DNA from: Rubritalea squalenifaciens DSM 18772
Lineage (GTDB): Bacteria; Verrucomicrobiota; Verrucomicrobiia; Verrucomicrobiales; Akkermansiaceae
Length of the DNA: 64,000 bases
Assembly: GCF_900141815.1 (NCBI RefSeq)
Contig: NZ_FQYR01000004.1
Span: forward strand, 558,001-622,000
Reading direction: 5' to 3'
Part shown: piece after piece, positions 32,485-33,805 of the stretch
How positions within the stretch are numbered: position 1 is the stretch's first letter
Layout: each line of letters opens with the position of its first letter
Notes under the pieces: model-generated
What the model saw: only the letters and a program-made list of their open reading frames with translations
What the model was told of the DNA's origin: nothing
Database searches by the model: none
Translations under genes and position numbers: made by a program

Positions 32485-32952
32485 TTATTCCTCCAACTTG
32501 ACGATGCGGATCTTGCCTGAGGCTTGTTGCATGGAATTTGAGAGGGTGTTGCTATCCTCCGCTTTAGCGGGTTCTTCTGCTGGGCTCTGATCCAGCGCAC
32601 TTTTTAGGGCGCCTTCAACCAGCTGGCCGCAGTGGATTTTCATGGGAGGCAGGGCCCCTAGGTCACCGGAGAGTTCTTGTGCACTCAGATGACGAGCTTC
32701 TTCCTCGGTCTTGCCCTTGAGCATTTCCGTAGCCATCGAGGCAACAGCAATGGCTGTCTGGCAGCCGAAGGACTGGAATGAAGCACGGTCAATGACCTTT
32801 TTGCCGTTTTCCTCCTTGAACTTGAGCCACATGCGCAGCATGTCCCCGCAATCGGGAGAGCCAACAGTGCCGACGCTATCTGCATCTTGCATTTCTCCCT
32901 GATTCTTGGGGTTAGCGAGGGTCTCTCTTACTTTGTCCTCAAAGTCGCTCAT
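32485..32952 (-). CDS. IscU/NifU-type Fe-S cluster assembly scaffold
   Basis: Protein of 155 aa. It carries the three scaffold cysteines in their usual contexts: GSPDCGD (Cys35, Asp37), FGCQTAIA (Cys64) and KIHCGQLVEGALKSAL (Cys108), so it can build and transfer a [2Fe-2S] cluster in the cytoplasm. A Glu/Ala/Ser-rich C-terminal tail (about 120-155) is not part of the core. No iscS, hscAB or suf gene is adjacent. A 12-bp palindrome lies just upstream of the start. Confidence 0.93.
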   Translation of the reverse strand: MSDFEDKVRETLANPKNQGEMQDADSVGTVGSPDCGDMLRMWLKFKEENGKKVIDRASFQSFGCQTAIAVASMATEMLKGKTEEEARHLSAQELSGDLGALPPMKIHCGQLVEGALKSALDQSPAEEPAKAEDSNTLSNSMQQASGKIRIVKLEE

Positions 32953-33031: not shown

Positions 33032-33805
33032 TTATTTGGCTGGAGAAAAGATGGTGCCAGCCGCTTTGACGCTTATTTTCTGGTTTCTTGCGTAAGCATT
33101 GACCGCTCTCATCCTGATTTCTTTTTCATTATTGCTTTTGAATAGTCCCTCCAAGGCGTCATGTAAAATGAAGGCTCCAGGATACATCAGTGATTTGGTT
33201 TGCAGTAGTGGGTAGACATTTCCCTGTCTGAAGTATTTTGAAAAATAGGATTCAGAATGACAGCAGAGGGTGATGGTCAGGATGACGGGTGGTTTTTCTG
33301 CGCTTGTGATATTCAGCTGAAAATCCATCAAACCGTTGTGACCGATATAGGCGACCAGATTGGATTTGGAACCAATAGCCAGCTTCTTGTCCAGGGAGCT
33401 ATGTTCTACGCTAGCTTCAAATCCCCCGAGACAGGCATTCAGGTAGTCTTTTATGCAGGTCTTGATCGCGCTGCCTCGGTAGGCGTCTGCTACCAGTAGG
33501 CTCTGGCTTTCCTTGTGTTGGAAAATGATTCTCTCCAGAATAGGGGACTCTTTATCCGTTGGTTTGATCACCGCCAATCGCTTCCACTTAGAGGAATTGG
33601 AAAAGTAGGATTTGGCCCCATCTGAGCATCCCCAGTAGAGGTTGCTGTCTGGGTCGTTACCATTGCCGATTTTGGCCGGAACTGGTGCGATGCCTTGGCT
33701 CTGATTGTCACAGAGTGCGACGAAAAGGTGGATCGTTCTTGGGGCGGCTGAGGCGTAAAACAAGCATGTGAGTAGTAAAAAAAGTGCAAGGACGGAAGTT
33801 CTCAT
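33032..33805 (-). CDS. secreted protein of unknown family with caspase-like His/Cys motifs
   Basis: Protein of 257 aa with a signal peptide (cleavage near ASA-A, 20/21). Conserved-looking blocks are TIHLFVALCDN, IAPVPAKIGNGNDPDSNLYWG, LVAYIGHNGLMDFQL and ILTITLCCHSESYF, then TKSLMYPGAFILHDALEGLF. A hydrophobic strand ending in GHNG (His156) followed by another strand ending in Cys-Cys-His-Ser (Cys181/182) is the layout of clan CD peptidases (caspases, gingipains, CHAT). I infer a possible periplasmic cysteine peptidase; no family name is known to me. It lies 79 bp upstream of the IscU-like gene on the same strand. Confidence 0.7.
   Translation of the reverse strand: MRTSVLALFLLLTCLFYASAAPRTIHLFVALCDNQSQGIAPVPAKIGNGNDPDSNLYWGCSDGAKSYFSNSSKWKRLAVIKPTDKESPILERIIFQHKESQSLLVADAYRGSAIKTCIKDYLNACLGGFEASVEHSSLDKKLAIGSKSNLVAYIGHNGLMDFQLNITSAEKPPVILTITLCCHSESYFSKYFRQGNVYPLLQTKSLMYPGAFILHDALEGLFKSNNEKEIRMRAVNAYARNQKISVKAAGTIFSPAK

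Follow-up and report, generated by a model that had tools for sequence, protein, structure and literature searches.

The window, by which is meant the whole 64,000-nucleotide stretch of Rubritalea squalenifaciens DSM 18772 DNA that was analysed (contig NZ_FQYR01000004.1), carries on its reverse strand a gene for a protein of 257 amino acids, of which there is one copy in its own genome (Table 1). The N-terminus, MRTSVLALFLLLTCLFYASA|APR, reads as a clear signal peptide, as noted in the sequence-only reading. Strand 1 of the domain that follows begins only a few residues into the mature protein and there is therefore no propeptide. A NifU-like scaffold gene (window positions 32485-32952, reverse strand) follows 79 bp downstream in the same orientation and is possibly co-transcribed here; it was not kept beside the other family members in the 36 neighbourhoods compared. 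The same genome encodes a separate Peptidase_C14 (metacaspase-type) domain within an open frame of 1700 amino acids (L124; G000:C2:1006235-1006921).

Table 1. Features of the exported protein gene, with positions counted from the first nucleotide of the window.
Feature	Position	Strand	Basis
Exported clan CD-like protein gene, 257 aa, ATG start	33032..33805	(-)	Open reading frame and translation; family alignment
Signal peptide, residues 1-20	33746..33805	(-)	Sequence; probable signal peptidase I site ASA|A
L1-position loop after strand 1, residues 31-63; proposed substrate-binding loop	33617..33715	(-)	Conservation; model; L1/alpha1 role (PMC4357240)
Motif H156-N157-G158-L159-M160-D161-F162 after strand beta3; His156 the proposed catalytic base	33320..33340	(-)	His in 43/43 rows; C25 and CHAT columns
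Cys182, proposed nucleophile, end of strand beta4	33260..33262	(-)	Conserved in 42/43 rows; C25 and CHAT columns
L5-position residues 203-212, T-x-x-x-M-Y/A-P-G/E-A/S-F/Y, after strand 5; proposed substrate-binding loop with aromatic	33170..33199	(-)	Conservation; model strand 198-201; L5 aromatic (PMC4357240)

Family membership and distribution

No match to the window protein was found in Pfam, NCBIfam, PHROG, PADLOC or the sequences of the PDB. The Pfam-A scan returned no clan CD family, whether for the window protein (E values up to 10) or for 21 family members (E values up to 1), and PF01364 (family C25) matched neither the protein nor these members. When the PDB sequences were searched with a profile, the only match was to monalysin, at chance level (E = 0.05), and the motif string turned up nothing in the literature searched. 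Relatives were sought by scanning genome contigs, which yielded 21 sequences of 35-49% identity from six phyla; three plasmid relatives added two Cytophagales and one gammaproteobacterium. Two annotated plasmid records with the family gene label it only as a hypothetical protein. The family alignment has 43 rows, in which the window gene is counted twice (42 distinct sequences), and the family occurs in Verrucomicrobiota, Bacteroidota, Planctomycetota, Acidobacteriota, Spirochaetota, Thermodesulfobacteriota and, on one plasmid, Pseudomonadota. The suggestion that the family is possibly undescribed is in keeping with the missing match in the libraries searched, among which no profile was identified for two families of the clan list (PMC12445089), MEROPS C84 (PrtH) and C123 (RARP2).

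The distribution is patchy: carriers are 19 of the 58 relatives that belong to the order of the window organism or are closer still, nine of 289 genomes drawn from its phylum and four of 296 drawn from the Chitinophaga phylum, and every genome with a whole copy has just one. In four related genomes (L038, L039/L042, L040 and L041) the gene is split or contains in-frame stops, through either decay or assembly error. Most rows of the family tree group by phylum and the window sequence is placed among those of Verrucomicrobiota; the exceptions (Treponema within Bacteroidota and a split Acidobacteriota) are compatible with what might be occasional transfer. A search for phage or viral-contig relatives found none, and no phage-borne or defence role is therefore suggested. 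A hydrophobic export signal was present in all 39 family N-termini examined, about 12 of them with a lipobox, as judged by a simple hydrophobicity and pattern test that makes these calls approximate.

Conserved residues around the His and Cys motifs

The sequence-only reading had singled out YIGHNG and TLCCHSESYF as a His-Gly and a Cys motif of caspase/gingipain type. Full-length numbering confirms their positions: His156 is encoded at 33338-33340 and Cys181 and Cys182 at 33263-33265 and 33260-33262, all on the reverse strand, and the second motif is followed by TKSLMYPGAFILHDALEGL. From His156 to Cys182 there are 26 residues. Throughout the family alignment the His is retained in 43 of 43 rows and Cys182 in 42 of 43, always at a spacing of 26-30 residues, and the His/Cys motif of the window protein is not a product of chance. 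The position of Cys181 is occupied by Cys, Ala, Gly, Thr or Ser, the last four accounting for 20 of the 43 rows; Cys181 is thereby ruled out as the nucleophile and Cys182 becomes the candidate, so that one of the two cysteines originally put forward is retained. In the proposed His-Gly motif the His is invariant and the canonical H-G is absent, the residue after the His being Asn (41/43) or Asp (2/43). The residue before it, Gly155, is present in every row, and a Gly beside the catalytic His is structurally conserved in clan CD (PMC4357240).

Besides Gly155, every row has L31, N34, N55, L56, Y57, W58, G59, G63, W74, G111, P209 and Y238, and 42 of the 43 have D33 and Q37. The strongly conserved positions form blocks, of which one follows strand 1 (D33, N34, Q37 and NLYWG), another the His (LMDF) and another strand 5 (T203, P209 and F/Y212). 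The block at the L5 position exists in two subfamily versions, YPGAF and APEAY. The two subfamilies thus differ at residue 210, Gly against Glu, and, as a guess, this may mean different P1 preferences; residue 212 is invariably Phe or Tyr.

The only row without the Cys is the plasmid homologue from Agarilytica rhodophyticola (L139:7845-8726), in which C182 is replaced by Arg; D33, Q37, G47 and G49 are gone as well, and with them the conserved DNxxQGI...GxG loop. Judged by these replacements, it is probably an inactive relative. Their joint loss is expected if all of these residues form one active site and is only suggestive because it concerns a single long-branch sequence. The existence of this member, and the Asn in place of the usual Gly beside His156, which could disturb the oxyanion hole, would fit a binding or scaffold protein of clan CD-like fold in which the His and Cys are kept for structure. 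Such a role is very improbable, however, given the retention of both residues across seven phyla and the fact that the Cys-less member has also lost other residues of the proposed active site.

Predicted fold and profile comparison

Structures were predicted with AlphaFold2 for the window protein (pLDDT 91.6, pTM 0.89) and for a Chitinophaga homologue (pLDDT 93.4, pTM 0.92). In the model of the window protein (strand positions at the His and Cys shifted by +1 from model to full-length numbering) strand 150-154 stops directly before G155-H156 and strand 176-180 before C181-C182, which bears out the strands that had been read as ending at these motifs. The His and Cys are thus found where clan CD has them, at the C-terminal ends of the successive central strands beta3 and beta4. 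Strand 24-30 is followed by the L1-position loop and then by helix 64-70, and strand 198-201 precedes the L5-position block. By definition the clan CD core has a helix, alpha3, that connects the strand of the His to that of the Cys (PMC4357240). Neither model has a helix there, which explains the short spacing between His and Cys and confines the claim to a clan CD-like fold with a deviating core rather than plain membership.

Foldseek alone gave no significant match for either model (none at E <= 0.001), with only GTPase-like noise against the PDB and BFVD. The Foldseek candidates were realigned to solved structures with VIA-align. The top match of the window model was SAVED-CHAT (Z 9.8, 167 residues, rmsd 3.5), followed by the TPR-CHAT caspase regulator 7zoq (7.1), RgpB (7.0) and Kgp (6.9), the best unrelated chain reaching 6.1. 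The Chitinophaga model matched separase (Z 9.3), three C11 entries (7.8, 7.5 and 7.5), DdvA (7.4) and RgpB (7.3), with GTPases at 6.3 or below; DdvA aside, the top rows of both models are clan CD or CHAT. Models without a match typically reach a Z of 7-8, which 9-10 exceeds only modestly, and a Z below 8 would be weak by itself. The fold comparison nevertheless counts as support because the two models, which are not fully independent since most alignment rows are common to both, each put several different families of clan CD at the top, with matches that extend across most of the domain. The fold suggested by the two motifs is accordingly the one that heads the VIA-align results of both models.

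For comparison at the level of profiles, C25, CHAT, C14 and C11 domains were gathered from bacterial genomes, aligned and compared by hhalign. The family scored 30.3 against C25 (E = 0.002, probability only 14%), a value reached by none of 500 column or block shuffles. The unguided alignment placed H156 on a column with His in 21 of 21 sequences and C182 on one with Cys in 21 of 21. By the same method the known clan pairs C25-C11, C14-C11 and C25-C14 scored 24.8, 28.0 and 34.7 (CHAT-C25 and CHAT-C14 much higher), and the same profiles scored 11.7-16.5 against a GTPase family; the match to C25 therefore equals in strength those seen between some accepted families of the clan. With the CHAT profile the score was 18.1, no better than that of a reversed control (20.2), and this non-significant alignment, in which H156 and C182 fall on His (18/18) and Cys (18/18) columns, serves for column register only and not for its score. 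The C11 profile scored no better than its shuffles, and the alignment with C14 fails to pair the His; both were dropped as support, the two motifs not being in register.

An unrelated alpha/beta fold, with motifs that resemble those of clan CD by convergence, would agree with the lack of a significant Foldseek match, with the missing helix between the motif strands and with the low hhalign probability. It would hardly be expected to lead two models to rank several different clan CD families first, or to give an alignment with C25 that outscores all 500 shuffles and keeps both catalytic columns in register, and is considered highly unlikely.

Proposed function and relation to known clan CD systems

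The window protein is likely to be an exported single-domain cysteine peptidase of caspase/gingipain (clan CD) fold that represents an undescribed family. The two models, the fold comparison and the C25 profile alignment all support the clan CD-like dyad of the original proposal; the peptidase activity we infer from sequence and models. The export signal leads directly into the alpha/beta domain, which has His156 and Cys182 at the ends of neighbouring central strands. His156 would activate Cys182, which would attack the peptide bond to form a thioester acyl-enzyme that is resolved by water. In clan CD the S1 pocket is made up of L1/alpha1, L4 and L5, with an aromatic residue on L5 (PMC4357240); the most conserved blocks of the family, after strands 1 and 5, and the invariant F/Y212 fit a substrate pocket, and the conserved L1, L3 and L5 loops may form a P1-selective one, as in other clan CD enzymes. 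The place of action would be the periplasm, the outer membrane, where the enzyme of many Bacteroidota would be a lipoprotein, or the extracellular space. With no propeptide visible, the enzyme is probably not a classical zymogen. Its likely task would be to process specific proteins or peptides of the cell envelope or to turn them over.

No partner gene common across phyla was found among the 36 neighbourhoods compared and no operon-based function is therefore assigned. One Verrucomicrobiota member (L135:1-2223) is the C-terminal part of an open frame of 741 amino acids with an N-terminal CHAP domain (PF05257, E = 3e-12) and an uncharacterised middle region. At another locus (L012:3282-6375) the family gene is flanked on one side by a gene for a secreted, retropepsin-like aspartyl protease and on the other by one for a YkuD L,D-transpeptidase, an arrangement that is repeated in L013. 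The CHAP fusion and the YkuD neighbour faintly suggest a role at the cell envelope. They would also fit a protein that has the clan CD-like fold and dyad and acts as a transpeptidase/ligase or amidase on cell-wall peptides instead of as an ordinary endopeptidase, and transamidating or sorting members do exist within the clan, namely GPI transamidase (C13) and PorU (C25). This alternative is unlikely, as it draws on just one fusion and one local neighbour from a related pair of loci, no neighbour gene is common across phyla in the 36 neighbourhoods, and gingipains, clostripains and caspases are endopeptidases. It is rather doubtful that the reworked active site (His-Asn, no helix between the dyad strands and an almost invariant 30-residue loop) marks a family with an envelope-specific reaction new to the clan, such as the cutting or rejoining of cell-wall peptides or of lipoprotein-linked substrates.

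Clan CD enzymes, among them caspases, separase, legumain, gingipains and Craspase, are some of the best studied regulatory proteases. Only eight families of the clan were listed in MEROPS in March 2025 (PMC12445089). If the preferred reading is true, the clan gains a compact exported family, present in at least seven phyla of bacteria, in which the core is trimmed and the residue beside the catalytic His is altered. Such a family would help to define the minimum for the clan CD fold, and its small, single-domain enzyme could be used in structural studies and in work on inhibitors.

Family C25 (RgpB/Kgp) gives the best profile match with both His and Cys in register, is likewise exported, has a similarly short His-Cys spacing and matches in fold with a Z of ~7 over ~165 residues; the window protein differs in being without an N-terminal subdomain, a propeptide and an Ig-like domain, and its family in having H-N for H-G and a long invariant loop after strand 1. 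The CHAT proteases (SAVED-CHAT and TPR-CHAT) provide the top structural Z, and the His and Cys fall on their invariant columns. Such CHAT enzymes are found in the cytoplasm and carry fused sensor domains, whereas the window protein is exported and single-domain, scores weakly against the CHAT profile and has no match to PF12770. Separase (C50) and clostripain (C11) are the best structural matches of the Chitinophaga model (Z 9.3 and 7.5-7.8), but they have no match at the sequence level and are much larger proteins; C11 enzymes are, moreover, made as zymogens. YabG, which has no sequence similarity to the other families, was recently argued into clan CD on the basis of its His-Cys dyad and Arg specificity (PMC12445089). 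It differs from the window family in that it has a His-Asp pair and is a protease specific to sporulation in spore formers, and no Pfam match connects the two. Compared with clan CD at large, the family has H-N(G) for H-G (with a Gly before the His), lacks a propeptide and has a near-invariant loop of 30 residues after strand 1. With these differences and that of the missing helix, it is surer that the protein works in the manner of clan CD than that it possesses every feature by which the clan is defined.
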